Shown: positions 1 to 35,336 of the stretch, one piece after another
Numbering within the stretch: position 1 is the first letter of the stretch
How the letters are laid out: every line of letters begins with the position of its first letter
NCBI GenBank assembly: GCA_947589485.1
Contig: CANQBK010000016.1
Coordinates: forward strand, 1-35,853
Reading direction: 5' to 3'
DNA from: an uncultured Clostridia bacterium
GTDB taxonomy: Bacteria; Bacillota; Clostridia; Oscillospirales; Acutalibacteraceae
DNA: 35,853 nt
Program-made: the position numbers and the translations under genes
The notes under the pieces: model-generated
What the model saw: only the letters and a program-made list of their open reading frames with translations
What the model was told of the DNA's origin: nothing
Databases searched by the model: none

Positions 1-50
1 CAGTACGAGCGAACGGAGTGAGCGACAGCGCGAATTGAGAGCGCAGGCAC
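1..50 (-). repeat. Module A of the composite element (partial, at window edge)
   Basis: CAGTACGAGCGAACGGAGTGAGCGACAGCGCGAATTGAGAGCGCAGGCAC; a near copy recurs at 254-303. Confidence 0.75.
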
Positions 51-123
51 TGCGCGTTTTTCGGTGGGGAACCCACGTAAGGGGTTCCCCGTAAACAATA
101 AGTTTTTGCCTTTGTTAATGATA

Positions 124-305
124 GTTAAGGGCTTTGCCCTTAAAAACCCACCAAAGGCTCCGCCTTTGGAATCCGCAAGCCTTTAAAAAGGCTTGACCGA
201 AACTTTTAACTATGGGAACATTAGCTAATGCCGCGCGAATGTAGTTTTGGCTTACAGTACGAGTGAGCGGAGCGAACGACAGCGCGAGTCGACAGTGCGG
301 GCACC
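124..305 (-). repeat. Composite intergenic multi-hairpin element, copy 1 (inverted relative to copy 2)
   Basis: GTTAAGGGCTTTGCCCTTAAAAACCCACCAAAGGCTCCGCCTTTGGAATCCGCAAGCCTTTAAAAAGGCTTGACCGAAACTTTTAACTATGG, then ATGCCGCGCGAATGTA spacer and CAGTACGAGTGAGCGGAGCGAACGACAGCGCG. Confidence 0.85.
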
Positions 306-5330: not shown

Positions 5331-5897
5331 ATGGAAAGATTCGGGTCGATTGTTAAAAAAATAAATGCACTGGCAGGATTAGCGGTAATAGCAGCGTTGT
5401 GCTGTCATGGCGGAAGTATGTGTTATTCGATGCTTACGGGGTGGTACGATTTCAATATTGCAAAGACTTTTGCAAATATAATCCTTATAGCAGTTGCAGT
5501 TCATGTTTTTCTAAGTATAACGATATTTTTCTTTTTTCATGACGGTGCGGTTTTAAAGTACAAAAAGGAAAATATTTCAACGCTTCTGCAGCGAATTTCT
5601 GCTGTTGCAATTTTAATACTTCTGCATATACATATAAATACTTATTCATTTATGGCAACGGGAGAAACTTTGGGTGTGGAACAGATTATTATACACTGTA
5701 CGAGCGAGATACTGTATTTTGCATCAATTATGACTCATATTGCAGTGTCAATAGGCAAGGGAGCTGTTACTCTCGGAATGGTTAAATCTTCGGCTTCTTT
5801 AAAAAGAATAAATCTGATTTCTTATATTATATGCGGAATAGCTATGGCGGCGGCAAGTATAAGTATGCTTCTCTTTTTTATTAGGGGGAACGTATGA
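5331..5897 (+). CDS. sdhC: Succinate dehydrogenase/fumarate reductase cytochrome b subunit (SdhC-like)
   Basis: About 5 TM segments with His in several helices (CCHGG, VAVHVFL, LLHIHIN, MTHIAVS); directly precedes and overlaps the flavoprotein gene. Confidence 0.8.
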   Translation: MERFGSIVKKINALAGLAVIAALCCHGGSMCYSMLTGWYDFNIAKTFANIILIAVAVHVFLSITIFFFFHDGAVLKYKKENISTLLQRISAVAILILLHIHINTYSFMATGETLGVEQIIIHCTSEILYFASIMTHIAVSIGKGAVTLGMVKSSASLKRINLISYIICGIAMAAASISMLLFFIRGNV

Positions 5898-7519
5898 TGA
5901 AAAAACTTATCATTGTAGGCAGCGGTATCGCAGGTCTTACTTGTGCTGTTGAATGTGCGGCACAGGGCGGAAGTGTTGTGTTGGTATCCCCGTATGTTTC
6001 CGAACGTTCACAGTCGGTAATGGCTGCCGGTGGTATAAACGCTGCTCTTGATACAAAGGGTGAAAATGACAGCATATTATGTCATATTGAAGATACAATG
6101 AGGGGCGGTGCATATATTGCCGACAGGAAAGCGGTTGAGGGAATGTGTACCGCAGCTCCCGAAATTATTAAATGGCTCGAAAGTTTAGGAACGGTATTTA
6201 CAAGAGATGAGAAAGGCAATATTGACCTTAGAGCTTTCGGCGGACAAACGCACAGGAGAACGGCATACGCAGGAGCGTCTACCGGAAAACAGATAGTTAC
6301 GGCACTGGTTCGGAAAGTGCGTGAATACGAATGTAGAGGTCTGATAAGTCGGAGGCTCGGTATGCAGTTTCACTCCGCACTTATAAACGACGGTAAATGC
6401 TATGGCGCTTTATTTTACAATGAGAAAGAATATAAAACCGAGGCTCTATACGCAGATGCCGTTATTATGGCGGTAGGCGGTCAAAACGGTCTTTTCGGGA
6501 AAACTACGGGTTCATTGCTATGCGACGGATATGCGGCGGGCAAGCTGTTTTATCAGGGAGCAAACCTCAAAAATCTTGAATTTATACAATATCACCCAAC
6601 GACCATAGAAACACCGCAAAAGAGAATGTTGATAAGTGAGGCTGCCAGAGGGGAAGGCGGCAGGCTGTATTATCTGAACGGAGATAAGCGAGTGTATTTT
6701 ATGGAGGAAAAATACGGCGAAAGAGGCAACCTTATGTCGAGGGATATAGTGTCGAAATGTATTTATGATGCTCCGTCGCAGGTATTTCTTGACATATCAT
6801 TTTTAGGAAAAGAAAAAATAAAGCATAAACTTAATGAAGTCAGCGATATATGTGACAGGTATGCGGGAATTGATGTTTTGAGGGAGAGTATCCCCGTATA
6901 TCCGTCGGTGCATTTTTTTATGGGCGGGTTGAGTGTAGACAGAAATCATAGGACAAATATAAAGCATTTATATGCTGTCGGTGAATGTGCGTCAATGTAT
7001 CACGGGGCAAACCGTTTAGGGGGCAATTCACTGCTTGCGGCGATATACAGCGGTAAATCAGCCGCATTATCTGCTGTTAATGAACCTTATGAGGATAGAA
7101 AACCTAATTTCGGGACATATATTTCGGAAAATGAAAGGAAGATAAGCAAAACGCTTTCTGCCGAAAGCAAATTTCCTGCTATATATATAAAACAGGAGCT
7201 TGCTAATATTATGAATGAAAATCTCGGTATAACAAGGACAGGCGATAAGATAAAAAAGGGTATTGAAAATATTGATTACTTTTTGTCGATAAGCGACAGG
7301 CTTAATTTTGACAGTTCCATATCACCCTATCAGTGTTACAGTCTTGAGGGAATGATAATGCTTGCCAAAGCTGTACTTATGTGTGCGGGAGAACGCAAAG
7401 AAACAAGGGGGGCTCATATACGTGATGATTACCCCGAAAGCAGAAAGGAATTAGAATGTTCGACCGTAATATCATACGATGAGGGGAATTATAAAATTTC
7501 TTTTAAGGAGGAGGTATAG
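5894..7519 (+). CDS. sdhA: Succinate dehydrogenase/fumarate reductase flavoprotein subunit
   Basis: GSGIAGLTCAVE FAD motif, MAAGGINAAL, FGGQTHRRTAYAGASTGK, FIQYHPTTI, SEAARGEGG, HFFMGGLSVD, GECAS..HGANRLGGNSLL motifs. Confidence 0.95.
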   Translation: MMKKLIIVGSGIAGLTCAVECAAQGGSVVLVSPYVSERSQSVMAAGGINAALDTKGENDSILCHIEDTMRGGAYIADRKAVEGMCTAAPEIIKWLESLGTVFTRDEKGNIDLRAFGGQTHRRTAYAGASTGKQIVTALVRKVREYECRGLISRRLGMQFHSALINDGKCYGALFYNEKEYKTEALYADAVIMAVGGQNGLFGKTTGSLLCDGYAAGKLFYQGANLKNLEFIQYHPTTIETPQKRMLISEAARGEGGRLYYLNGDKRVYFMEEKYGERGNLMSRDIVSKCIYDAPSQVFLDISFLGKEKIKHKLNEVSDICDRYAGIDVLRESIPVYPSVHFFMGGLSVDRNHRTNIKHLYAVGECASMYHGANRLGGNSLLAAIYSGKSAALSAVNEPYEDRKPNFGTYISENERKISKTLSAESKFPAIYIKQELANIMNENLGITRTGDKIKKGIENIDYFLSISDRLNFDSSISPYQCYSLEGMIMLAKAVLMCAGERKETRGAHIRDDYPESRKELECSTVISYDEGNYKISFKEEV

Positions 7520-8379: not shown

Positions 8380-11300
8380 GTGAAAAGCGAAAGAAAGAAA
8401 AAAGCAGTTCAAAAAATACTTTGTGTTGCTCTTGCGGCGGCAATGCTCGGAGTTTATGCGGAAACTGCTCTGCCTGTGTATACGGGTACGGGAGTTGTTG
8501 CCAAAGCGGCGACATCAATGGATGTTGAAGCAGGCGATGATTACAAGTGGAAAGAAAATCAAGACGGCAGTGTGACAGTTACAGATTATACCGGAAACGG
8601 CGGAGATGTTGTTATCCCGTCTGAAATTGACGGAAAGCCTGTTACATCAATAGGCAAAAGGGCGTTTAAAGATTGCACAGGACTGACAAGCGTAACCATT
8701 CCCGACAGTGTTACATCAATAGGTGATGATGCGTTTTCAGACTGCACAGGACTGACAGTAATAAGTGTTGATAAAAATAACGAAAGCTACACATCCGAAG
8801 ATGGTGTTTTATTTGACAAAAATAAAACTACTTTGATGACATATCCCCAAGGTAAGAAAGGCGCCTACACCATACCCGATAGTGTTACATCAATAGGCAA
8901 AAGGGCGTTTTCTGACTGCGCAGGACTGACAGACGTAACGATACCCGACAGTGTTACATCAATAGGTGATGGTGCGTTTGTCGATTGCATAGAACTGAAA
9001 AATGTAACGATACCCGACAGTGTTACATCAATAGGTGAAGAGGTGTTTTTTGGCTGTACAGGACTGACAAGCGTAACGATACCCGACAGTGTTACGGATA
9101 TAGGCAGTAGTGCGTTTTACGGTTGCACAGGTCTGACAAGTGTAATCATACCCGGCAGTGTTACTAAGATAGAGGCATTTTTATTTAGTGAGTGCACGGG
9201 ACTGACAAGCGTAACAATACCCGACAGCGTTACATCAATAGGCTATTATGCGTTTAAAGATTGCACAGGACTGACAAGCGTAACCATTCCCGACAGTGTT
9301 ACATCAATAAGTGATGATACGTTTTCAGGCTGCACAGGACTGGCAGTAATAAATGTTGATAAAAATAACGAAAGCTACACATCCGAAGATGGTGTTTTAT
9401 TTGACAAAAATAAAACTAATTTGATAATATATCCCGTAGGTAAGAAAGGCGCCTATACCATACCCGATAGTGTTACCGAGATAGGCTCGAGTGCGTTTGA
9501 CGGCTGCATAGGACTGACAAGTGTAACGATACCCGACAGTGTTACATCAATAGGTTATGGTGCGTTTTTCGGCTGCACAGGACTGACAGACGTAACGATA
9601 CCCGACAGCGTTACATCAATAAGCAGTTTGGCGTTTTACAATTGCACAGGGCTGACAAGTGTAATCATACCCGGCAGTGTTACATCAATAGGCAGTAGTG
9701 CGTTTTACGGATGCGATAATATTACCATTCACGGCTACAAAAACAGCTACGCCGAAACTTATGCAAATGAAAACGGAATTACTTTTGCTGAAATAGATGT
9801 TGAAACAGCCGATGATTACGAGTGGAAAGAAAACGAGGACGGCACTGTGACGATAACAGGTTATACCGGAAACGGCGGAGATGTTGTTATCCCGTCTGAA
9901 ATTGACGGTAAGTCTGTTACATCAATAGGCAATTGGGCGTTTGAAGATTGCACAGGACTTACAAGCGTAACGATACCCGGCAGTGTTACGAAGATAGGCA
10001 ATTGGGCGTTTTTTAGATGCACGGGACTGACAGACGTAAAGATATCCGACAGTGTTACGGAGATAGGTATGGCGGCGTTTTATGGCTGCACGGGACTGAC
10101 AAGCATAACCATACCCGACAGTGTTACGAATATAGGTATGGCGGTGTTTTTTGGCTGCACAGGACTGACAAGTATCGATGTCGATAAGAATAACGAAAAT
10201 TATTTATCCGAAAGCGGCATTGTATTTAACAAAGACAAGACTGCTCTTATATTATATCCCGTAGGTAGAATAGGTGACTATACTATACCCGACAGTGTTA
10301 CGTCAATAGGTACGTCGGCGTTTGTGGATTGCACGGGACTGACAAGTATAACAATACCCGACAGTGTTACGGAGATAGGTATGGGGGCGTTTGCAGGCTG
10401 CTCGGGACTGACAAGTATAACAATACCCGACAGTGTTACGAAGATAGGTGCTGAGGCGTTTTCATATTGCACAGGACTGACAAGTATTGATGTTGATAAG
10501 AATAACGAGAATTATTTATCTGAAAACGGCGTTCTGTTTAACAAAGACAAAACTTCTCTGATAGCATATCCCGGAGGTAAGAATGGTGCCTACACTGTAC
10601 CCGGAAGCGTTACGGAAATAGGTGCCGGGGCGTTTGCAGATTGCACAGGACTGACAAGTATAACAGTTCCTGACAGTGTTACGTCAATAGGTGATTATGC
10701 GTTTTCACATTGCACAGGACTGACCAATATAACAATACCTGCAAGTGTTACCGAGATAAGTGATGGTATATTTGCCGGATGTGACGATATTGTTATTTTC
10801 GGTTATAGTGGCAGTTATGCGGAAACTTATGCAAATGAAAACGAACTTGCTTTTGTTGCAATAGATGCTGATTACGAGTGGGAAGAAAATGAAGACGGCA
10901 GTGTGACAATTACAGGTTATACCGGAAACGGCGGAGATGTTGTTATTCCGTACGTAATTGACGGAAAACCTGTTACATCAATAGGCAATTGGGCGTTTGA
11001 CAGCTGCATAGGACTGACAAGCATAACCATACCCGACAGTGTTACATCAATAGGTGATGGTGCGTTTGCCGACTGCACAGGACTTACAGTAATAAGTGTT
11101 GATAAAAATAACGAAAGCTACACATCCGAAGATGGTGTTTTATTTGACAAAAATAAAACTACTTTGATAAGATATCCCGGAGGTAAGAAAGGCGCCTACA
11201 CTATACCGGGCAGTGTTACATCAATAGGTTATGTTGCGTTTGCCGACTGCCCGGGACTGACAGACGTAACGATACCGGGCAGTGTTACATCAATAGATGA

Positions 11301-13500
11301 TGGTGCGTTTTTATACTGCCCGAGACTGACAAGCATAACCATACCCGACAGTGTTACATCAATAGGTTATAGTGCGTTTTTCGACTGCACAGGACTTACA
11401 GTAATAAGTGTTGATAAAAATAACGAAAGCTACACATCCGAAGATGGTGTTTTATTTGACAAAAATAAAACTACTTTGATAACATACCCCGGAGGTAAGG
11501 AAGGTGCCTACACTATACCGGGCAGTGTTACATCAATAGGTGATCGTGCGTTTGGGTATTGCAAAGGACTGACAAGCATAACCATACCCGACAGTGTTAC
11601 ATCAATAGGTTATAGTGCGTTTGTCGTCTGCAAAGGACTGACAAGTGTAACCATACCCGACAGCGTTACCGAGATAGGCTTGGGTGCGTTTGCCGACTGC
11701 ACAGGACTTACAGAAATAAATGTTGGTCAAAATAACGAAAGCTACACATCCGAAGATGGTATTTTATTTGACAAAAATAAAACTACTTTGATAATATATC
11801 CCGCAGGTAAGAAAGGTGCCTACACTATACCGGGCAGTGTTACATCAATAGGTGATGGTGCGTTTGGGTATTGCAAAGGACTGACCAATACAACAATACC
11901 TGCGAGTGTTATTGAGATAGGCAGTGATGCATTTTACGGATGTGATAATGTTACCATTTACGGCTACAAAAACAGTTATGCCGAAACTTACGCCAAAGAC
12001 AATGATATTCCTTTTGTTGCCATTGAAGAACCTATCGTTACACCTACGGAAATAACTCTTGACACGACACGCACATGGATGGGCAGAGGTGAAACCTATC
12101 AGCTTAGCGCAACTGTAAGCCCGAACAATGCCGCCGATAAAAGTATAACTTGGACTTCGAGCAACAATAATATAGCAACCGTAAGCAACGGAAAAGTAAC
12201 GGCTAAAAAAGACGGAACGGTTACTATTACTGCAAAGACGAGCAACGGAAAAACCGCAGAGTGCAAAATAACCGTTCAGCCGCCTGCAAGCAAAATAACC
12301 CTTAATAAATCGACCTTGTATCTCGGTATCGGGGAAACATTCCAACTCACAAGCTCGGTTCAGTCGGGAACAGCCTCGGCAAAGCGTGCTTTTGCGTCAA
12401 GCGATAACAGTATATGCTACACAAGCGGCAAAGGACTTTTGACCGCCAAAAAGGCAGGTACGGTATATGTTACCGTTAAGACGTTCAACGGAAAGACGGC
12501 GCAATGTAAAGTCGTAGTACAGCCGCCTGCAAGCAAAATAACCCTTAATAAATCGACCTTGTATCTCGGTATCGGAGAAACATTCCAACTCACAAGCTCG
12601 GTTCAGTCGGGAACAGCGTCAACAAAACGTGCTTTTGTGTCAAGCGACAACAGTATATGCTACACAAGCGGCAAAGGACTTTTAACAGCCAAAAAGGCAG
12701 GTACGGTATATGTTACCGTTAAGACGTTCAACGGAAAGACGGCGCAATGCAAGGTTGTAGTTCAGCCGCCTGCAAGCAAAATAACCCTTAATAAATCGAC
12801 CTTGTATCTCGGTATCGGAGAAACATTCCAGCTCACAAGCTCGGTACAGTCGGGAACAGCGTCAACAAAACGTGCTTTTGCGTCAAGCGACAACAGTATA
12901 TGCTACACAAGCGGCAACGGACTTTTGACCGCCAAAAAAGCAGGTACGGTATATGTTACCGTTAAGACGTTCAACGGCAAGACGGCGCAATGCAAAGTTG
13001 TAGTACAGCCGCCTGCAAGCAAAATAACCCTTAATAAATCGACATTGTATCTCGGTATCGGGGAAACATTCCAGCTCACAAGCTCGGTTCAGTCGGGAAC
13101 AGCGTCAACAAAGCGTGCTTTTGCGTCAAGCGATAACAGTATATGCTACACAAGCGGCAATGGACTTTTGACCGCCAAAAAAGCAGGTACGGTATATGTT
13201 ACCGTTAAGACATTCAACGGCAAGACGGCGCAATGCAAAGTTGTAGTACAGCCGCCTGCAAAAGCCGTACACATAAGCAAATCGTGGCTCACACTTCACG
13301 TTGGACAGAAATTCCAGCTTTCAAGCTGGGTTGAAGCAGGCACGGCATCAACAAAGCGTGCTTGGAGTTCAAGTGACAACAACACAGTTCATACAAGCGG
13401 CAACGGACTTTTGACCGCAAAGAAAACGGGTACTGCTAACATTACGGTCAAGACATTTAACGGCGTATCTTCTACTCTTAAAGTAAAGGTTATAAAATGA
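8380..13500 (+). CDS. BspA-like leucine-rich repeat (LRR_5) secreted/surface protein with C-terminal bacterial Ig-like (BIG2) repeats
   Basis: GTG start after AAGGGGG; signal peptide MKSERKKKAVQKILCVALAAAMLGVYA; many CTGLTSVTIPDSVTSIGxxAF repeats; Ig-like ITLDTTRTWMGRGETYQLSATVSPNNAADKSITWTSSNNNIATVSNGKVTAKKDGT. Confidence 0.95.
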   Translation: MKSERKKKAVQKILCVALAAAMLGVYAETALPVYTGTGVVAKAATSMDVEAGDDYKWKENQDGSVTVTDYTGNGGDVVIPSEIDGKPVTSIGKRAFKDCTGLTSVTIPDSVTSIGDDAFSDCTGLTVISVDKNNESYTSEDGVLFDKNKTTLMTYPQGKKGAYTIPDSVTSIGKRAFSDCAGLTDVTIPDSVTSIGDGAFVDCIELKNVTIPDSVTSIGEEVFFGCTGLTSVTIPDSVTDIGSSAFYGCTGLTSVIIPGSVTKIEAFLFSECTGLTSVTIPDSVTSIGYYAFKDCTGLTSVTIPDSVTSISDDTFSGCTGLAVINVDKNNESYTSEDGVLFDKNKTNLIIYPVGKKGAYTIPDSVTEIGSSAFDGCIGLTSVTIPDSVTSIGYGAFFGCTGLTDVTIPDSVTSISSLAFYNCTGLTSVIIPGSVTSIGSSAFYGCDNITIHGYKNSYAETYANENGITFAEIDVETADDYEWKENEDGTVTITGYTGNGGDVVIPSEIDGKSVTSIGNWAFEDCTGLTSVTIPGSVTKIGNWAFFRCTGLTDVKISDSVTEIGMAAFYGCTGLTSITIPDSVTNIGMAVFFGCTGLTSIDVDKNNENYLSESGIVFNKDKTALILYPVGRIGDYTIPDSVTSIGTSAFVDCTGLTSITIPDSVTEIGMGAFAGCSGLTSITIPDSVTKIGAEAFSYCTGLTSIDVDKNNENYLSENGVLFNKDKTSLIAYPGGKNGAYTVPGSVTEIGAGAFADCTGLTSITVPDSVTSIGDYAFSHCTGLTNITIPASVTEISDGIFAGCDDIVIFGYSGSYAETYANENELAFVAIDADYEWEENEDGSVTITGYTGNGGDVVIPYVIDGKPVTSIGNWAFDSCIGLTSITIPDSVTSIGDGAFADCTGLTVISVDKNNESYTSEDGVLFDKNKTTLIRYPGGKKGAYTIPGSVTSIGYVAFADCPGLTDVTIPGSVTSIDDGAFLYCPRLTSITIPDSVTSIGYSAFFDCTGLTVISVDKNNESYTSEDGVLFDKNKTTLITYPGGKEGAYTIPGSVTSIGDRAFGYCKGLTSITIPDSVTSIGYSAFVVCKGLTSVTIPDSVTEIGLGAFADCTGLTEINVGQNNESYTSEDGILFDKNKTTLIIYPAGKKGAYTIPGSVTSIGDGAFGYCKGLTNTTIPASVIEIGSDAFYGCDNVTIYGYKNSYAETYAKDNDIPFVAIEEPIVTPTEITLDTTRTWMGRGETYQLSATVSPNNAADKSITWTSSNNNIATVSNGKVTAKKDGTVTITAKTSNGKTAECKITVQPPASKITLNKSTLYLGIGETFQLTSSVQSGTASAKRAFASSDNSICYTSGKGLLTAKKAGTVYVTVKTFNGKTAQCKVVVQPPASKITLNKSTLYLGIGETFQLTSSVQSGTASTKRAFVSSDNSICYTSGKGLLTAKKAGTVYVTVKTFNGKTAQCKVVVQPPASKITLNKSTLYLGIGETFQLTSSVQSGTASTKRAFASSDNSICYTSGNGLLTAKKAGTVYVTVKTFNGKTAQCKVVVQPPASKITLNKSTLYLGIGETFQLTSSVQSGTASTKRAFASSDNSICYTSGNGLLTAKKAGTVYVTVKTFNGKTAQCKVVVQPPAKAVHISKSWLTLHVGQKFQLSSWVEAGTASTKRAWSSSDNNTVHTSGNGLLTAKKTGTANITVKTFNGVSSTLKVKVIK
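12277..13248 (+). repeat. Four tandem 243-bp (81-aa) near-identical Ig-like coding repeats
   Basis: CAGCCGCCTGCAAGCAAAATAACC recurs at 12277, 12520, 12763 and 13006; a diverged fifth unit follows from 13249. Confidence 0.95.
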
Positions 13501-13567
13501 TTCTTTCATTTGTGTGACATTACCGCTATTTAAAACACATAATGAAAGACGCAGAACCGCATAAAAA

Positions 13568-13604
13568 AACAAGCGACAGTAAATAAAGCTGTCGCTTGTT
13601 TTTG
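13568..13604 (+). terminator. Rho-independent terminator after the BspA-like gene
   Basis: AACAAGCGACAG-TAAATAAAG-CTGTCGCTTGTT perfect 12-bp stem followed by TTT. Confidence 0.88.
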
Positions 13605-15153: not shown

Positions 15154-17115
15154 ATGGACAAATTTAAACTTGTATCGAATTACAATCCCACGGGCGACCA
15201 GCCTCAGGCAATTGACACACTTGTAAGAAGTATCAAGTCGGGCAATAAAGAACAAACTCTTCTCGGAGTAACAGGTTCGGGAAAAACATTTACAATGGCA
15301 AATATAATTGAACGTATGAACCGTCCTACCTTGGTGCTTGCTCACAACAAAACGCTTGCGGCACAGCTATGCAGTGAATTTAAGGAATTTTTTCCCGAAA
15401 ACGCGGTAGAATATTTCGTAAGCTATTATGATTATTATCAGCCGGAGGCTTATGTTCCGACTACTGACACATATATAGAAAAAGACAGTTCCATAAATGA
15501 CGAAATAGATAAGCTCCGACATTCGGCAACGCTTGCGCTTTCCGAAAGACGTGACGTGATTATCGTTTCAAGTGTTTCCTGCATATATTCTCTCGGTAAC
15601 CCGATAGACTATCGGACAATGGTTATTTCACTTCGTCCCGGTATGCAGAAATCAAGGGACGAGCTTTTGAAAAAGCTCGTTGACTTACAGTACGAACGCA
15701 ATGATATAGATTTTACACGCAACAAGTTCCGTGTAAGAGGAGATGTGGTGGAAATTTTTCCCGTATCATCATCGGATACAATTATACGGGTCGAATTTTT
15801 TGGTGACGAAATTGACAGAATAACAGAGGTCAACCCTATTACGGGTGAAGTTAAAAGTACCGTTCGTCACGCGGCTATTTATCCCGCATCGCATTATATT
15901 GTTCCCCGTGACAAAATGGAGAGTGCAATCAGCGAGATAGAAAGGGAGCTTGAAGAACGCATAGAGTTTTTTAAGGATAGAGGAAAGCTGCTTGAGGCGG
16001 AGCGCATAGAACAGCGCACACGTTATGACATTGAAATGCTCAGGGAAATAGGATTTTGTACGGGAATAGAGAATTACTCAAGAATTTTGTCGGGCAGAGA
16101 AGCGGGTTCGTCCCCGTACACACTTCTTGATTATTTTCCCGACGACTATTTGCTTTTCGTTGACGAGTCCCACGTTACGCTGCCCCAAGTCAGGGGAATG
16201 TACGGAGGCGACAGGGGCAGGAAAGAAAATCTTGTAAATTTCGGATTTCGTCTGCCATCAGCATTTGACAACAGACCCTTGAATTTTGACGAATTTTATG
16301 ACAGAATAAATCAGGCGGTGTTTGTCAGCGCAACGCCCGGAGATTTTGAAAAGGAAAAAAGCAGTATAATTGCCGAACAAGTGATACGTCCTACGGGACT
16401 TCTTGACCCCGAAATAAGTGTACGTCCCGTTGAGGGGCAAATGGACGATTTAATTTCGGAGATAAATATTCGAGCCTCGAAAAAGCAGAGAGTTCTTGTC
16501 ACAACGCTGACGAAAAAAATGGCGGAAGATTTAACGGAATATTTTACCACAATGGGAATAAGGGTAAGATATATGCACTACGACATTGACACGGTTGAAC
16601 GTATGCAAATAATCCGTGATTTACGGCTGGGAGAATTTGATGTTCTTGTCGGCATAAATCTTTTGCGTGAAGGTCTTGACATACCGGAAGTTTCTCTTGT
16701 TGCGATACTTGATGCAGATAAAGAGGGATTTTTAAGAAGTGAGCGTTCGCTTATTCAAACGATAGGACGTGCGGCGCGAAATTCGGAAGGCAAGGTAATA
16801 ATGTACGCTGATGTTGTTACGGATTCAATGGAAAAGGCAATAACAGAAACAGAGAGGCGTCGTGCGATACAACGTCAATACAACGAAGAACACGGAATCA
16901 TTCCCAAAACAATTGTTAAAAAGGTAAATGATATTATAGAAATATCGTCACACGATGACATTGAAAAACGTTCAAAGACCAAATTATCAAAGGCGGAACG
17001 AGAAAAGCTGATTGAACAGCTTACAAAAGAAATGAAAGCGGCGGCAAAAATCCTTGAATTTGAACACGCCGCATATCTCCGTGACAAGATAAAAAAACTT
17101 AGAGGCGATTATTAA
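15154..17115 (+). CDS. uvrB: Excinuclease ABC subunit B
   Basis: [85 protein letters not shown] and C-terminal UVR motif; AAGGTGAG precedes ATG 15154. Confidence 0.98.
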
Positions 17116-17118
17116 TGC

Positions 17119-17304
17119 GCCGAGCCTGCGCTGTCGATTCGCGTTGTCGATCACTCCGTTCGCTCGTACTGCAAAAGATAAGTACAATCGCGCGGCATAA
17201 GTTTTTTTAGCCATAGTCAAAAGTTTCGGTCAAGCCTTTTCAAAGGCTTGCGGATTCCAAAGGCAGAGCCTTTGGCGGGTTTTTAAGGGCGGAGCCCTTA
17301 ACTC
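17119..17304 (+). repeat. Composite intergenic multi-hairpin element, copy 2 (between uvrB and parE)
   Basis: Module A (reverse complement of CAGTACGAGCGAACGGAGTGA...GACAGCGCAGGC), conserved spacer, then module B with three hairpins: AAGCCTTTTCAAAGGCTT, CCAAAGGCAGAGCCTTTGG, AAGGGCGGAGCCCTT. Confidence 0.85.
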
Positions 17305-17340: not shown

Positions 17341-19326
17341 ATGGCAAAGAAAAAAATACAGGAATACGGTAACGAAAGTATAAGTTCGCTGAAAGGTGCG
17401 GATAGAGTGCGTAAACGTCCCGCAGTTATATTCGGCTCGGACGGTATAGAAGGCTGTCAGCACTCTGCTTTTGAAATATTGTCTAACTCGATTGATGAAG
17501 CAAGAGAGGGATACGGAAAAGAAATTATTGTAACAAAATACGCCGATAATTCGATAGAAATTGAGGACTTCGGCAGGGGTATCCCCGTTGATTATAACAA
17601 AAACGAGGAACGCTATAATTGGGAACTCGTTTTTTGCGAGCTGTATGCCGGAGGAAAATACAATAACAGCGAGGCTGAAAACTATGAGTTCTCCTTGGGA
17701 TTAAACGGTCTTGGTCTTTGTTCTACACAGTATTCGTCCGAATATATGGATGTCGATATTCGCCGTGACGGCACACGCTTTACTCTGCATTTTGAACACG
17801 GAGAAAATGTTGGAGGACTTCATCGTGAACAGTATACCGGTAAGAAAACCGGTACAAAAATTCATTGGAAGCCCGATATAGAGGTGTTTACCGATATAAA
17901 TATATCCGATGAGTATTTTGAGGATACAATAAAACGTCAGGCGATAGTAAATGCAGGTATAAATTTTATTTTCCGTACCGAAAAAAACGGAAAATTTGAA
18001 ATCTCCGAGTTTAAATACGATAACGGTATTGTAGACCATGTAAAGGAAATTGTGGGAGAAAATGCTTTGTCGCAGGTTCAATTATGGCAAACTGAAAAAA
18101 TGGTTCGTGACCGTGACGATAAACCCGAATATAAAACGAAAATAAACATAGCCCTTGCCTTTTCAAATAAAAATGCCGTTGCCGAATATTACCACAATTC
18201 GAGCTTGCTTGAATACGGCGGAGCGCCCGAAAAGGCTGTCAGAAATGCGTTTGTTTATTCCATAGATTCATATTTGAAACAAAACAGCAAATATACTAAA
18301 AACGAAAGTAAAATAAATTTTGACGATGTTAAAGATTGTCTTGTAATTGTTATCTCTTCATTTTCAAATGTGACTTCATACGAAAACCAAACCAAAAAAG
18401 CCATAACAAACAAGGGTATTCAAGACGCAATGACGGAATATTTGCGTCATCAGCTTGAAATATATTTTATTGAAAACAAACTTGATGCGGAAAAAATTTC
18501 AAATCAGGTTCTTATAAATAAAAGGAGCCGTGAAAGTGCCGAGAAAACACGCCTTAACATAAAGAAAACTCTTGCGGGAAATATGGATATGACGGGACGT
18601 GTCGCAAAATTTGTCGATTGCCGAAGCAAAGATAAATCCGAACGGGAACTTTTTATAGTTGAGGGAGATTCGGCTCTCGGAGCCTGCAAACAGGCACGCA
18701 ACCCCGATTTTCAGGCTATAATGCCGATTAGGGGAAAAATATTGAACTGCCTGAAAGCAGACTATGACAAGATTTTTAAAAGTGAAATAATAACCGACTT
18801 GTTAAAGGTTCTCGGATGCGGTGTTGAAGTAAAATCAAAAGCAAACAAGGAGCTTGCATCGTTTGATATGGATTTACTGCGTTGGAACAAGATAATATTT
18901 TGTACCGATGCCGATGTTGACGGCTTTCATATAAGAACGCTCTTGTTGACTATGATATATCGGCTTGCCCCTACTCTTATAAAAGAGGGAAAGGTGTTTA
19001 TTGCCGAGTCGCCCCTTTATGAAATAACATCAAAAGAAAAGGTGTATTTCGCCTATAATGAAACAGAAAAAGAAAACTTTATAAAAGAAATAGGCGATAA
19101 AAAATTTACCGTACAGCGTTCAAAAGGACTTGGTGAAAACGAGCCTGATATGATGAGCTTTACAACAATGAACCCCGATACTCGCCGACTTATCAAGGTA
19201 ATGCCTGATAATGCCGCCGCGACATCTGAAATGTTTGATATACTTCTTGGCGACAACCTCAGTGTAAGACGTGATTATATAATTGAGAACGGAGCAAAAT
19301 ATATTGACGACCTTGATGTTTCTTAA
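17341..19326 (+). CDS. parE: DNA topoisomerase IV subunit B (divergent ParE/GyrB-type)
   Basis: GHKL ATPase motifs (SNSIDEA, EDFGRGIPV, YAGGKYNN), TOPRIM ELFIVEGDSALGACKQARNPDFQAIMPIRGKILN and FCTDADVDGFHIRTLLLTMIYR; AGAGGG RBS before ATG 17341. Confidence 0.93.
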   Translation: MAKKKIQEYGNESISSLKGADRVRKRPAVIFGSDGIEGCQHSAFEILSNSIDEAREGYGKEIIVTKYADNSIEIEDFGRGIPVDYNKNEERYNWELVFCELYAGGKYNNSEAENYEFSLGLNGLGLCSTQYSSEYMDVDIRRDGTRFTLHFEHGENVGGLHREQYTGKKTGTKIHWKPDIEVFTDINISDEYFEDTIKRQAIVNAGINFIFRTEKNGKFEISEFKYDNGIVDHVKEIVGENALSQVQLWQTEKMVRDRDDKPEYKTKINIALAFSNKNAVAEYYHNSSLLEYGGAPEKAVRNAFVYSIDSYLKQNSKYTKNESKINFDDVKDCLVIVISSFSNVTSYENQTKKAITNKGIQDAMTEYLRHQLEIYFIENKLDAEKISNQVLINKRSRESAEKTRLNIKKTLAGNMDMTGRVAKFVDCRSKDKSERELFIVEGDSALGACKQARNPDFQAIMPIRGKILNCLKADYDKIFKSEIITDLLKVLGCGVEVKSKANKELASFDMDLLRWNKIIFCTDADVDGFHIRTLLLTMIYRLAPTLIKEGKVFIAESPLYEITSKEKVYFAYNETEKENFIKEIGDKKFTVQRSKGLGENEPDMMSFTTMNPDTRRLIKVMPDNAAATSEMFDILLGDNLSVRRDYIIENGAKYIDDLDVS

Positions 19327-19333
19327 AGCACAT

Positions 19334-19452
19334 TAAGGCGGCATAAATTTATATCAGCCAAAATTAAAGGTTTCGCGCAAGCCTTTTTAAAGTCTTGCGT
19401 TTTTCAAAGGCACAGTCCTTTGGCGAAGTTTCGGGAGCGGAGCCTCCGATAA
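19334..19452 (+). repeat. Composite intergenic multi-hairpin element, copy 3 (degenerate, module A lost; between parE and parC)
   Basis: GGCGGCATAAATTT..AGCCAAAATTAAAGGTTTCGCGCAAGCCTTTTTAAAGTCTTGCG..CAAAGGCACAGTCCTTTGGCG..GGGAGCGGAGCCTCCG aligns to the 3' part of copy 2. Confidence 0.75.
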
Positions 19453-19480
19453 TTTATTACTTGCAGGCAGGAGAAAAAAT

Positions 19481-21721
19481 ATGGCAAAAAGGAAAACAAC
19501 AAAAAATACTGCGTCAACACAAAAAATGCAGGGATATATTGAGGGTGCGGGAGAGGTAGTTGAAGAAAAAATAGTATCAACGCTTGAAGAAAATTTTATG
19601 CCCTACGCTATGAGTATAATACTAAGCCGCGCAATACCCGAAATAGACGGATTTAAACCGTCACACAGAAAGCTGCTGTATACAATGTACAAAATGGGAC
19701 TTTTAGGCTCGACGCGCACTAAATCGGCAAATATAGTCGGTCAGACAATGAGACTGAACCCCCACGGAGATGCGGCGATTTATGACACTATGGTAAGGCT
19801 TAGCAGGGGATATGAGGCACTTTTACACCCATATATAGATTCAAAAGGAAATTTCGGTAAATTTTACAGTCGTGATATGGCTTGGGCAGCGTCAAGATAT
19901 ACCGAGGCAAAGCTCGACCCTATATGCAGCGAACTGTTTAACGATATTGATAAAGATACTGTCGATTTTGTAGATAACTATGACAATACCCTGAAAGAAC
20001 CCTCACTTTTGCCCGCCGCATTTCCATCGGTTCTGGTCAATGCGAATACGGGCATTGCGGTAGGTATGGCAAGCTCTATATGTTCGTTTAACCTTGCCGA
20101 GGTCTGCCGCACGACCGTAGGGCTGCTTAAAGACCCCGATTTTGATATTATGTCAACGCTTATCGCACCCGATTTTACGGGAGGCGCACAAATAGTATAC
20201 GACAAAAAGGTTATAGAAAACATATATAAAACGGGCAGAGGAAGCATTAAGCTGAGAGGGCGGTACCGTTACGACAAGACTGCAAACTGTATAGATATTT
20301 TGAGTATACCTCAAACCGCAACAGCCGAGGCTTTGATAGAAAAGGTTATTGACCTTGTAAAACAAGGCAAAATAAAAGAAATATCGGATATTCGTGACGA
20401 AACAGGACTTGACGGTCTTAAAATAACCATTGACCTTAAACGCGGAATAAATCCCGACAAGCTGATGCAAAAGCTGTATAAGATGACCCCGCTTGAGGAC
20501 AGCTTTTCCTGTAACTTCAATGTGCTTATTGCGGGTACGCCCAAGGTTATGGGAGTTCGTGAGCTTTTGAACGAGTGGTCGGCTTTCCGCATTGAGTGCG
20601 TAAAAAGAAGAACGTACTTTGACCTGCATAAAAAACAGGAAAAACTGCATCTTTTGCGTGGACTTGAAAAAATTTTGCTTGATATAGACAGAGCCATAAG
20701 TATTATACGGGGTACAAAAGAGGAAAGTATGGTCGTTCCGAACCTTATGAGCGGTTTCGGCATTGATGAAACACAAGCCGAATATGTTGCCGAAATAAAA
20801 CTGCGTCAGCTTAACCGTGAATATATATTGAAACGCACCGATGATATTTCACGTCTTGAAAATGATATTGAAAAACTGGAATCTGTTTTAAAAAGTAATG
20901 CCAAAATAAAAAAAATTATCATCAAAGAACTTGAAGATATTGCCGAAAAATACGGTCAGCCCCGTAAAAGTATGATTATATATGCCGATGATATTGTCGA
21001 AGAGGATACAGCCGAGGAAATTCCGGATTATGCCGTTAATTTGTTCTTTACAAAGGACGGTTACTTCAAGAAAATCACGCCCCAGTCTTTAAGAATGAGC
21101 AGTGAACACAAGCTCAAAGAGGGCGATAAAATTATCGAGCATTTTGAAACGACAAACAACACCGACATTATATTCTTTACCGATAAACAGCAGGCGTACA
21201 AGACAAAAGCACCCGAATTTTCGGATACAAAGGCAAGCGTTTTGGGAGAATACATTCCGTCAAAGCTCTCTTTTGACGAGGGTGAAAACGCCGTATATAT
21301 GGTGCCGACAAAAGATTATAAGGGATTTGTTTTATTCGTGTTTGAAAACGGAAAAATAGCTAAAGTGCCGTTGTCGGCATATTTTACCAAAACTAACCGA
21401 AAACGGCTTACCGGCGCATATTCCGACAAGGAGCGTCTGGCGTCTGCGGTATATGTTGAAAATGACGATACCGATATTGTTCTGAGGTCGTCGTCGGGCA
21501 GGATACTTATTATAAAATCGTCCGACCTCCTTGCCAAAACAAGCCGCAATACACAGGGCGTGGCTGTTATGAAACTAAGAAAGGGACACAGAATTGTATA
21601 TGCCGAGGTATATAATGAGTCAATGCTGCGTAATCCCGAAAAATACCGAGCAAAAACAATTCCGGCATCGGGACGTGTTCCCTCTGCCGACGAATCCGGT
21701 GAACAGATTACGTTCGGATAA
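19481..21721 (+). CDS. parC: DNA topoisomerase IV subunit A (divergent ParC/GyrA-type)
   Basis: SRAIPEIDGFKPSHRKLLYTMYKMGL, NPHGDAAIYDTMVRLSRG, DSKGNFGKFYSRDMAWAASRYTEAKL (catalytic Tyr in RYTE). Confidence 0.93.
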   Translation: MAKRKTTKNTASTQKMQGYIEGAGEVVEEKIVSTLEENFMPYAMSIILSRAIPEIDGFKPSHRKLLYTMYKMGLLGSTRTKSANIVGQTMRLNPHGDAAIYDTMVRLSRGYEALLHPYIDSKGNFGKFYSRDMAWAASRYTEAKLDPICSELFNDIDKDTVDFVDNYDNTLKEPSLLPAAFPSVLVNANTGIAVGMASSICSFNLAEVCRTTVGLLKDPDFDIMSTLIAPDFTGGAQIVYDKKVIENIYKTGRGSIKLRGRYRYDKTANCIDILSIPQTATAEALIEKVIDLVKQGKIKEISDIRDETGLDGLKITIDLKRGINPDKLMQKLYKMTPLEDSFSCNFNVLIAGTPKVMGVRELLNEWSAFRIECVKRRTYFDLHKKQEKLHLLRGLEKILLDIDRAISIIRGTKEESMVVPNLMSGFGIDETQAEYVAEIKLRQLNREYILKRTDDISRLENDIEKLESVLKSNAKIKKIIIKELEDIAEKYGQPRKSMIIYADDIVEEDTAEEIPDYAVNLFFTKDGYFKKITPQSLRMSSEHKLKEGDKIIEHFETTNNTDIIFFTDKQQAYKTKAPEFSDTKASVLGEYIPSKLSFDEGENAVYMVPTKDYKGFVLFVFENGKIAKVPLSAYFTKTNRKRLTGAYSDKERLASAVYVENDDTDIVLRSSSGRILIIKSSDLLAKTSRNTQGVAVMKLRKGHRIVYAEVYNESMLRNPEKYRAKTIPASGRVPSADESGEQITFG

Positions 21722-21989: not shown

Positions 21990-22493
21990 ATGGGAGTTTG
22001 GGAAATTATTGTTGCCGCTTTGGTTCTTGTTTTTTCGGTTTTGATGATTATAGTAATCATTCTTCAGGAAGGTCACGAAGCCGGTCTGGGTACGATAACC
22101 GGAGGAGCCGATTCATTTCTTAGCAGGGGCAAAGCGCGTACCGCAGATGCGATTTTTGCAAGAATAACAAAATACTGCGCGCTTTTGTTTTTCGTTTTGG
22201 TCGTTCTTCTTAACGCAATGCAGTATTTTAATTTTACCGGAGCTCCCGATAAGAATGTTACCGAAACTTCGGTAGTTTCCGATGCTTCAACCGAATCGTC
22301 TGCCGAATCAAAATCCGAGAGCAAGACGGAATCGTCAGCCGAGTCAAAAACCGAGAGCAAAACAGAATCGTCAGCCGAGTCGAAAACCGAAAGCAAAGCC
22401 GAATCAAAAGCCGAGAGTAAAGCCGAATCGTCTGCTGTTTCAAATACGCAAAGCGGTCAGGCGTCTGCAAATTCAACATCAAGCCAAGGCTGA
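21990..22493 (+). CDS. secG: Preprotein translocase subunit SecG with extended Ser/Glu/Lys-rich C-terminal tail
   Basis: Two TM segments, LQEGHEAGLGTITGGADSFLSRGKARTADAIFARITKYCALLFFVLVVLL; AGGAGG RBS. Confidence 0.93.
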   Translation: MGVWEIIVAALVLVFSVLMIIVIILQEGHEAGLGTITGGADSFLSRGKARTADAIFARITKYCALLFFVLVVLLNAMQYFNFTGAPDKNVTETSVVSDASTESSAESKSESKTESSAESKTESKTESSAESKTESKAESKAESKAESSAVSNTQSGQASANSTSSQG

Positions 22494-32495: not shown

Positions 32496-32561
32496 TAAGT
32501 ATATTATATTTAGGCTCTATGTCAATAGTTGGGGTAAACCGGAAAAAAGTATATTAGAATA

Positions 32562-32598
32562 AGCAAGCGATAACAAATCAAGCTGTCGCTTGTTTTGT
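32562..32598 (+). terminator. Terminator-like hairpin between tmRNA and apt
   Basis: CAAGCGATA...TGTCGCTTGTTTTGTGTTT; 7-bp perfect stem followed by TTTT. Confidence 0.65.
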
Positions 32599-33425: not shown

Positions 33426-35336
33426 CTATAAAAAGTTTTTTATATCTTCGGGTAAGGAAATTTGCTGAGCTTGTTCTCCGGGACGTTTAAACTCTATTTT
33501 ATTGTCGCTGTATATTTTTATAATTCCCAGCTTTCTGCTGTTGTCTGAATATATATGTAGTCTTGTGCAGCCGTTTGCCGGTTCCTCCTGATAATTATAA
33601 TTTTTAATTATATTTTTTATCTTATCTGTAATGTCAAATGAAGTTTCAGGCGGTGTAATTGCTGTATTAATAGTTGCCTGATTATTTGCTGTACTAATAG
33701 CTGCCTGAGTATTTGGTGTATTAATAACGGTTTGAGTATTTGCTGTATTAATAGTTGTCTGAGTATTTGGTGTATTAATAAATGTTTGAGTGTTTGCTGT
33801 ATTAATAGTTGTCTGAGTATTTGGTGTATTAATAAATGTTTGAGTGTTTGCTGTATTAATAGCTGTCTGAGTATTTGCTGTATTAATAGTTGCCTGAGTA
33901 TTTGGTGTATTAATAACGGTTTGAGTATTCGTTGTATTAGTAGCTGTTTGAGTATTTGCTGTTTGTTTATTGATATTCTGTGGTTTTACCTCAGAATAAA
34001 TTATATCGCCATCGGGTATGCGGGCAGACATATTATACTGTTCGGCAAGAGCAGTCATTTTAAATTCGGCGGTCGGCTGAATCTTATGTACTAATTGTTC
34101 AAGTTCGTTAAGGCTAACATTAAAAAATTCCTTACGTTTATTAATCTTATTAAGACGTTTATTATCAAGAGCCTTATGGAGCATAGTTTCAAGCTCTATG
34201 GCATTATCGGAAAAAATAAAGCAATGTACGTCAAACGGAAACGGCACGCTTGCGTTTGACAGTTCATCAATTCTGTCCTGTGGCTCAATACGTCTTGTCA
34301 TTCCTACTTTAAATACATTTTCGCCGAACGAGCCTATATTACTTATAACATATACATTTCCTGCCTGTCCGTTCTGGAGGTTAATTATCTGCTCTTTTTT
34401 ATCTTCAACATTGTTCAGCATATTTTCAAGCTCCGCAAGCCTTTGCTTTAGTTTTTCCATTTCATCATCATTGGCGGTGGAAATAGAAATCTTAACATTT
34501 TCTATTTCATTTTGATATTTTTTCTCTTCTTTTTCAATATGCTTTTGCTGTTGTTGTAATATTCTTTGTTCTTCTGCTTCCTGCCTCATCTGTTCCTTGA
34601 TAGCTTTTTGTTCTTCCTTTATTCGTTCCTTTTGGGCGTAATATTCGTACTCAATATCAACAGCTTCCATATAGTATACAACAAGCTCATCTATAAATTT
34701 TTTAAGAGTAGGAGCGATACTCTGATTGCCGTTAGCGGTTATCTCATAGTAACGCTTTGTTACGCTGTTGACTTTTTCTTTTGCTTTATCCGCTGTGCCG
34801 AAACGTAAATTAAGAAGTATGTTTTGCAGTTCGGCTTCGAGTCCCAGTATCATAAGCTGATATAACGCCTTATTTGTTTTTGTTGTATAACGATTCTCAT
34901 ATTTAAGTATTAGTTTTTTAATATTGGTTTTGTTTGCACTGAATAATTTCCTTAAATCAGGAACATCAAGGCAATTATAATGAATTTCAGATATATGAGT
35001 AAAAAGGGAGAAAGTATTAATTATCATATTGGGAGCTTCGGGTTCATTATTCATATCAGCCTTAACAGCTTTTTGAGCGGCTTTGATAATGGTTTTTAGA
35101 GATTCTGTTTTTAACCGTGTTTTTTTCAGCTCATCATCAGCCTTTGCCTTAGCGTCATTTAGGCTTTTGATTTGTTCGGTCAATGCCTCTATTTCTTTTT
35201 TTAAATCCGACAGCTTTTGTCCGCTTATCGTATTGTACAAGTCCGTATTTTCCGCTTGAAGTCTTGCCAGTTCACGTTTTAATCTTTCATTTTCTTCTTT
35301 TATTTGATTCACTTGAAATATATCCGATATTCCCAT
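33426..35336 (-). CDS. Coiled-coil protein with GIY-YIG (T5orf172/Mug113-type) nuclease domain, DUF4041-like central region and NTQT repeat linker
   Basis: N-terminal coiled coil; central RLKTESLKTIIKAAQKAVKADMN..; NVYVISNIGSFGENVFKVGMTRRIEPQDRIDELSNASVPFPFDVHCFIFSDNAIELETMLHKALDNKRLNKINKRKEFFNV is T5orf172/GIY-YIG-like. ATG 35336 has AAAGG upstream. Confidence 0.82.
   Translation of the reverse strand: MGISDIFQVNQIKEENERLKRELARLQAENTDLYNTISGQKLSDLKKEIEALTEQIKSLNDAKAKADDELKKTRLKTESLKTIIKAAQKAVKADMNNEPEAPNMIINTFSLFTHISEIHYNCLDVPDLRKLFSANKTNIKKLILKYENRYTTKTNKALYQLMILGLEAELQNILLNLRFGTADKAKEKVNSVTKRYYEITANGNQSIAPTLKKFIDELVVYYMEAVDIEYEYYAQKERIKEEQKAIKEQMRQEAEEQRILQQQQKHIEKEEKKYQNEIENVKISISTANDDEMEKLKQRLAELENMLNNVEDKKEQIINLQNGQAGNVYVISNIGSFGENVFKVGMTRRIEPQDRIDELSNASVPFPFDVHCFIFSDNAIELETMLHKALDNKRLNKINKRKEFFNVSLNELEQLVHKIQPTAEFKMTALAEQYNMSARIPDGDIIYSEVKPQNINKQTANTQTATNTTNTQTVINTPNTQATINTANTQTAINTANTQTFINTPNTQTTINTANTQTFINTPNTQTTINTANTQTVINTPNTQAAISTANNQATINTAITPPETSFDITDKIKNIIKNYNYQEEPANGCTRLHIYSDNSRKLGIIKIYSDNKIEFKRPGEQAQQISLPEDIKNFL
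33657..33965 (-). repeat. In-frame minisatellite (21-bp units, partly in 42-bp higher-order repeats) in the GIY-YIG gene
   Basis: On plus strand, alternating GTATTTGGTGTATTAATAAATGTTTGA / GTGTTTGCTGTATTAATAGTTGTCTGA; encodes (A/P)NTQTxINT repeats. Confidence 0.9.

Follow-up and report, generated by a model that had tools for sequence, protein, structure and literature searches.

What is the stretch of about 190 nt between uvrB and parE in a contig of an uncultured Clostridia bacterium (the whole stretch of 35,853 nt analysed here is called the window): a mobile DNA repeat or a structured RNA? An earlier note had described it as a composite with three consecutive hairpins, and proposed a MITE/REP-like mobile unit or a structured RNA family. 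Sequence, coordinates and fold agree with the description. Between the end of uvrB at 17115 and the start of parE at 17341, as placed by Pfam, positions 17114-17304 hold a module A, a spacer S and a module B with three adjacent hairpins, and folding of the composite as DNA gave z = -3.17 and placed 8-bp hairpins within module B. No ORF of at least 80 aa was found across the composite, which bears out the view that it encodes no obvious protein. The parts are as follows, where R1 is a covariance model of the three hairpins:

17117..17171, + strand: module A, one 27-nt unit and then TTGTCGATCACTCCGTTCGCTCGTACTG
17117-17143, + strand: the 27-nt unit of module A, a palindrome GCGCCGAGCCTGCGC (mixed type) plus GATTCGCG
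17172..17218, + strand: module S, a variable spacer CGCGCGGCATAAGTT...CCATAGTC, 74-95% identical among own-genome copies
17219..17304, + strand: module B, a three-hairpin unit that is the short form of a family-wide element; R1 score 68.6 bits, E 2.6e-16
17231..17250, + strand: hairpin 1 of module B, CAAGCCTTT-TC-AAAGGCTTG
17257..17275, + strand: hairpin 2 of module B, CCAAAGGC-AGA-GCCTTTGG
17283..17301, + strand: hairpin 3 of module B, short-form type, TTAAGGGC-GGA-GCCCTTAA

In many other genomes the place of this short-form hairpin 3 is taken by TCGnnnnn-CGCA-nnnnnCGA. A marginal match of R1 inside uvrB (15649-15702; 17.3 bits, E 0.008) is probably due to chance.

The composite recurs within the window. 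An inverted recurrence had been proposed near 124-305, and alignment confirmed it: 123-312 is 83% complementary to 17114-17303 across 190 nt, and a 25-mer from module A has just two occurrences in the window, where chance predicts 0. A third copy, a decayed S plus B, lies between parE and parC, and its hairpin 3 is unlike that of other copies while its pairing is kept. The further copies are:

123..302, - strand: second composite copy (B 123-207, S 209-246, A 255-302)
56..122, - strand: fragment of module C, a paralogous five-hairpin element oriented opposite to B
1..58, - strand: further copy of module A at the contig end, where the assembly breaks inside an array
19338..19365, + strand: decayed S fragment in the parE-parC gap, GCGGCATAAATTTATATCAGCCAAAATT
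19366..19444, + strand: decayed B copy in the parE-parC gap, R1 36 bits, E 9.6e-8; hairpin 3 is TCGGGAGCGGAGCCTCCGA

Repeats of other kinds were also seen in the window: two terminator-like palindromes at 13564-13602 and 32558-32596 (AAGCGACAGTAAATAAAGCTGTCGCTTGTTTT) form a pair that is 85% alike, and tandem repeats lie within ORFs at 8380-13500 (a 1706-aa ORF with long internal repeats), 22289-22454 (12-nt period) and 33605-34009 (27-nt).

Outside the window, the BLASTN search that the earlier note had suggested returned at least 91 matches to the composite in the bacterium's own 2.39-Mb assembly, a number obtained by scoring 40 of 233 candidates and far above chance, and R1 found at least 150 copies of the hairpin module there. 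Many contigs of this genome begin or finish within the repeat. The copies form mosaic arrays of A (1-5 units of 27 nt), S and B. Module B is either whole or broken off, at one of several points, by the start of the next A, and A+S is also present in inverted orientation. The palindrome of module A takes the forms GCGCAGTGCCTGCGC, GTGCGGTGCCCGCAC and GCGCCGAGCCGGCGC, all of them paired, and rarer mixed forms such as that of the window. Module C, a five-hairpin relative of B in the opposite orientation, is present at about 40 places. The earlier note had taken the spacer to be conserved and had concluded that the composite moves or is inherited as one unit, and the comparison corrected both claims in detail. 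Among the own-genome copies, B is the best-kept module (mostly 94-100% identity), A is intermediate (about 75-95%) and S is the most variable; A+S recur in tandem with variously cut B, and in other species B is present without A or S. Judging from these sequences, the A-S-B composite is a species-level, local assembly of separately dispersed modules.

Among 36 congeners searched by BLAST, module B was found in 31, and modules A and S were not among the matches. R1 detected carriers in 37 of 150 genomes of the same family and in 10 of 243 of the class, with 1 to at least 150 copies per carrier genome. The matches listed for a DNA pattern of hairpins 1 and 2 came mostly from rumen and gut MAGs labelled Ruminococcus, Oscillospiraceae, Clostridium or Clostridia, and also from Pseudoruminococcus massiliensis. 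Throughout the repeat family the architecture is one of 3-5 adjacent hairpins over ~80-200 nt, with fixed loops and linkers and freely variable stems. The fuller form, ~190 nt long, consists of hairpins 1 and 2, a hairpin 3 with an 8-bp stem and a CGCA loop, then a linker with GGGGTGAATT or GCAGGAGGGG at its end, followed by hairpin 4 (CAGTCC..GGACTG) and hairpin 5 (GGGGACGCC..GGCGTCCCC); the window copy is the three-hairpin short form. The earlier note had named a match to a known Rfam model as grounds against its reading, and none was obtained for the window or for 10 relative loci. Phage and plasmid records gave no match to a 176-nt five-hairpin consensus, and a module A pattern had 0 matches in the genome_contigs set, which possibly does not include the bacterium's own record. 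The hairpin sequences appear in no paper of the open-access literature searched, where the related papers that turned up dealt with REPs, repeats and template switching in general, and an earlier description in a subscription journal is possible.

Units resembling module A were seen in two relatives. The parE-parC gap of one congener (G064:C96:3730-4230) contains an A-like unit with GGCAGCGTGACGCTGCACCCGATTTGCG and an S-like stretch, so that A has relatives with other stem sequences. At two loci of Ruminococcus sp. RUG11102, A-like units (GCGGCGAGCCGCCGCCGTCAAGACGCGGAATCGCTCG...) follow B immediately, which suggests that the A-B neighbourhood is older than the species of the window.

The hairpins keep their position, length and loop, while in their stems the two arms change together. 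In an alignment of 22 sequences, both-side changes were seen in 15 of 25 pairs, with 47 double changes against 1 single-sided change. The proposed covariance-model check for compensatory changes, extended to 133 sequences, gave double changes in 24 of the 25 pairs, 579 double-change cells and 98% of cells paired; all controls were exceeded, the shuffled and slid ones being far lower, although these counts lean towards R1 because the alignment was fitted to it. Read directly, hairpin 3 had 18 different stems, and 381 of 384 cells were Watson-Crick. Helix 1 had zero single-sided standard-pair changes among the 133 sequences, and helices 1 and 2 together contained 7 G-T and 14 A-C among about 2190 cells. 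Helix 3 contained 30 G-T and 5 A-C, counts that are blurred by the short-form hairpin being forced onto the model. Terminator-like hairpins of the same loci had 39 G-T and 28 A-C in 995 cells, a weak control in that G-T barely exceeds A-C. Substitutions in the stems are thus almost exclusively double and Watson-Crick-preserving, and the G-U excess expected of RNA is absent. An RNA drifting through G-U intermediates would look different, whereas copying of one DNA arm onto the other would produce the pattern observed, and template switching in quasi-palindromes is known to raise the complementarity of their arms (PMC7202029). Covariation with hardly any G-U intermediates speaks more for hairpins formed by DNA than for a family of RNAs.

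Comparison of collinear relatives gave a second line of evidence. In a genus of the same family (g25), two species carry 27 (G246) and 68 copies, and two others, whose genomes are 93-100% complete, carry 0. Collinearity with the three other g25 species extends over most of a 19.9-kb stretch of G246. At one site the same two conserved genes are separated by 851 bp with the element in G246 and by 24 bp in G328, G326 being occupied; at another the distance is 1882 bp in G246, made up of the repeat and further sequence, versus 324 bp in G328 and 397 bp in G327, both of which lack the element. Loss is an unlikely alternative source of this presence/absence, because two g25 congeners have zero copies genome-wide. 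The decayed copy in the parE-parC gap is missing from five syntenic relatives. The uvrB-parE gap itself yielded no empty site in the relatives read and is unusable for this purpose, since the gene upstream of parE is another one there. Together, these results support dispersal and an insertion-like presence/absence of the repeat.

In g25 the hairpins sit in larger repeat units of roughly 750-950 bp, which occur at many places of G326 and, in the G246 stretch, at these positions:

33-979, 5866-6604, 11145-11907 and 19000-19901: larger repeat units

The reading of the element as a transcribed structured RNA at gene 3' ends, with a terminator, processing or mRNA-stability function and spread by selection, draws on its covariation and on its surroundings. 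With ORFs called mechanically, the upstream ORF was co-directional at 41 of 51 usable genome_contigs sites (41:10), convergent gaps outnumbered divergent ones by 17 to 3, and the median distance from the upstream ORF end was 41 nt. No clear orientation bias was seen, however, in the bacterium's own genome (15:10) or in G246, G223 and G288 (12:9), and the bias is compatible with a 3'-end role as well as with a 3'-end insertion preference of the repeat. The RNA half of the earlier proposal has very strong covariation on its side and falls short elsewhere: G-U pairs are nearly absent, A-C being at least as frequent as G-T in helices 1 and 2, no Rfam family matches, the distribution is patchy down to the copy-free g25 congeners, and length ranges from three hairpins to units of several hundred bp. 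We regard a structured RNA as unlikely.

The mobile half of that proposal stands as far as dispersal and presence/absence go, and is not supported as membership of either named class. A genuine REP/REPIN family, mobilised by a Y1 (HUH) transposase of the RAYT type, would fit extragenic palindromes in many copies, in tandem and inverted clusters and with a single-strand hairpin logic, and one intact Y1_Tnp frame, 174 aa long, is present in the own genome. But Y1_Tnp is absent from G246, G288, G223 and G048, which are 99-100% complete and carry 27, at least 11, at least 19 and 4 copies, and from most element-bearing genomes tested; no convincing A, B or C module lies around the five own Y1 loci, one of which is partly N. 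The hairpins, moreover, are perfect and variable instead of one conserved imperfect palindrome, and they are preceded by GGT/GCT and GCGGWTT, with no GTAG-type guide. Because Y1 is missing in the four near-complete carriers and no module flanks the own Y1 genes, we rejected REP/RAYT membership, which we hold to be highly improbable. A MITE, bounded by terminal inverted repeats and derived by deletion from an insertion sequence with a DDE transposase, would likewise be non-coding, 100-850 bp long and intergenic and would leave an empty site. Of the two signs of insertion that the earlier note had proposed to look for, the empty site in g25 was found, while target-site duplications were not in excess (3 of 27 versus 2.0 expected, with element ends inferred). 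Flanking inverted repeats are barely above chance (mean 7.7 versus 6.9), except in JAQXLO, where at four loci an imperfect ~20-bp inverted repeat (TCACGGATTTTTGTGGGATT ... AAATCCCACAATTTTCCGTGA) encloses five hairpins. The classical TIR/TSD-type MITE was also rejected, since the search for general terminal inverted repeats and for target duplications revealed neither, and we give it very little credence. Binding sites of a chromosome-organising protein, selected and passively amplified, would account for high copy number, intergenic location and palindromes, and BIMEs do bind gyrase or IHF. Yet a protein that binds duplex DNA would read the stems, and no part of the element is less conserved; copy-free species also exist, and this explanation strikes us as extremely unlikely.

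We lean towards a dispersed, non-coding DNA repeat of which the element is one copy: short perfect palindromes lined up in a chain, which would act as a folded single strand and be copied by a putative trans-acting enzyme. The repeat is multi-copy, intergenic and patchy, sits at sites that are vacant in collinear relatives, and forms mosaic arrays in which B is cut where module A begins; it is probably mobile. The co-directional bias towards the upstream gene is a counter-point, since simple insertion does not predict it. In the mechanism that we propose, the unit acted on would be a single DNA strand folded into adjacent hairpins, and the putative enzyme, recognising this folded strand, would copy it to new intergenic sites. 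Replication template switching inside each hairpin would turn a change in one arm into the matching change in the other, and the stems may stay perfect because arm is copied onto arm in this way. In the species of the window, tandem duplication and illegitimate joining at the GC-rich palindromes could then have given rise to the A-S-B(-C) arrays.

The repeat behaves as REP, BIME and MITE elements do, as a hairpin repeat dispersed through the genome. With REP/BIME and with REPINs and their RAYT (TnpAREP) (PMC3116915, PMC6006769) it shares dispersed extragenic palindromes, tandem or mosaic clusters, a non-coding nature, patchiness and an ssDNA hairpin logic, but it differs in that it links 3-5 distinct perfect hairpins whose stems can change, and in having several carriers without Y1. 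Stem-loop intergenic repeat families have been described in 40 bacterial genomes, for example Bcr1 in Bacillus and Clop-1 and Clot-1 in Clostridium (PMC2267715); Ruminococcus is absent from the main text of that study. Those families are similar in length (mostly 31-200 nt), in having tens of copies, in their often intergenic location and in a predicted common stem-loop structure, but they were defined by sequence within one species, whereas here one hairpin architecture with replaced stems extends over many genera. Like MITEs, the repeat is short, non-coding and multi-copy, with insertion-like presence/absence; unlike them and unlike a classical transposon, it showed neither a terminal inverted repeat of general occurrence at its ends nor a target-site duplication. 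Adjacent small perfect hairpins in mosaic clusters also make up the double-hairpin elements of organelle genomes. Compared by description only, the present repeat differs from these in being bacterial and in having 3-5 hairpins and long conserved linkers.

More tentatively, such repeats may represent a class of mobile DNA in bacteria for which hairpin architecture is the sole recognition feature, with exchangeable stems kept perfect by template switching during replication, loops and linkers serving as the conserved signals, and a putative non-Y1 enzyme that would copy the folded strand into new intergenic sites in many genera of gut Clostridia. In some gut bacteria the repeat family accounts for a visible portion of the genome and breaks the assembly. 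If the reading is confirmed, the near-total lack of one-sided stem changes would be a natural record of palindrome-perfecting mutation, and setting carriers against their empty congeners would make the hunt for the mover directly testable.
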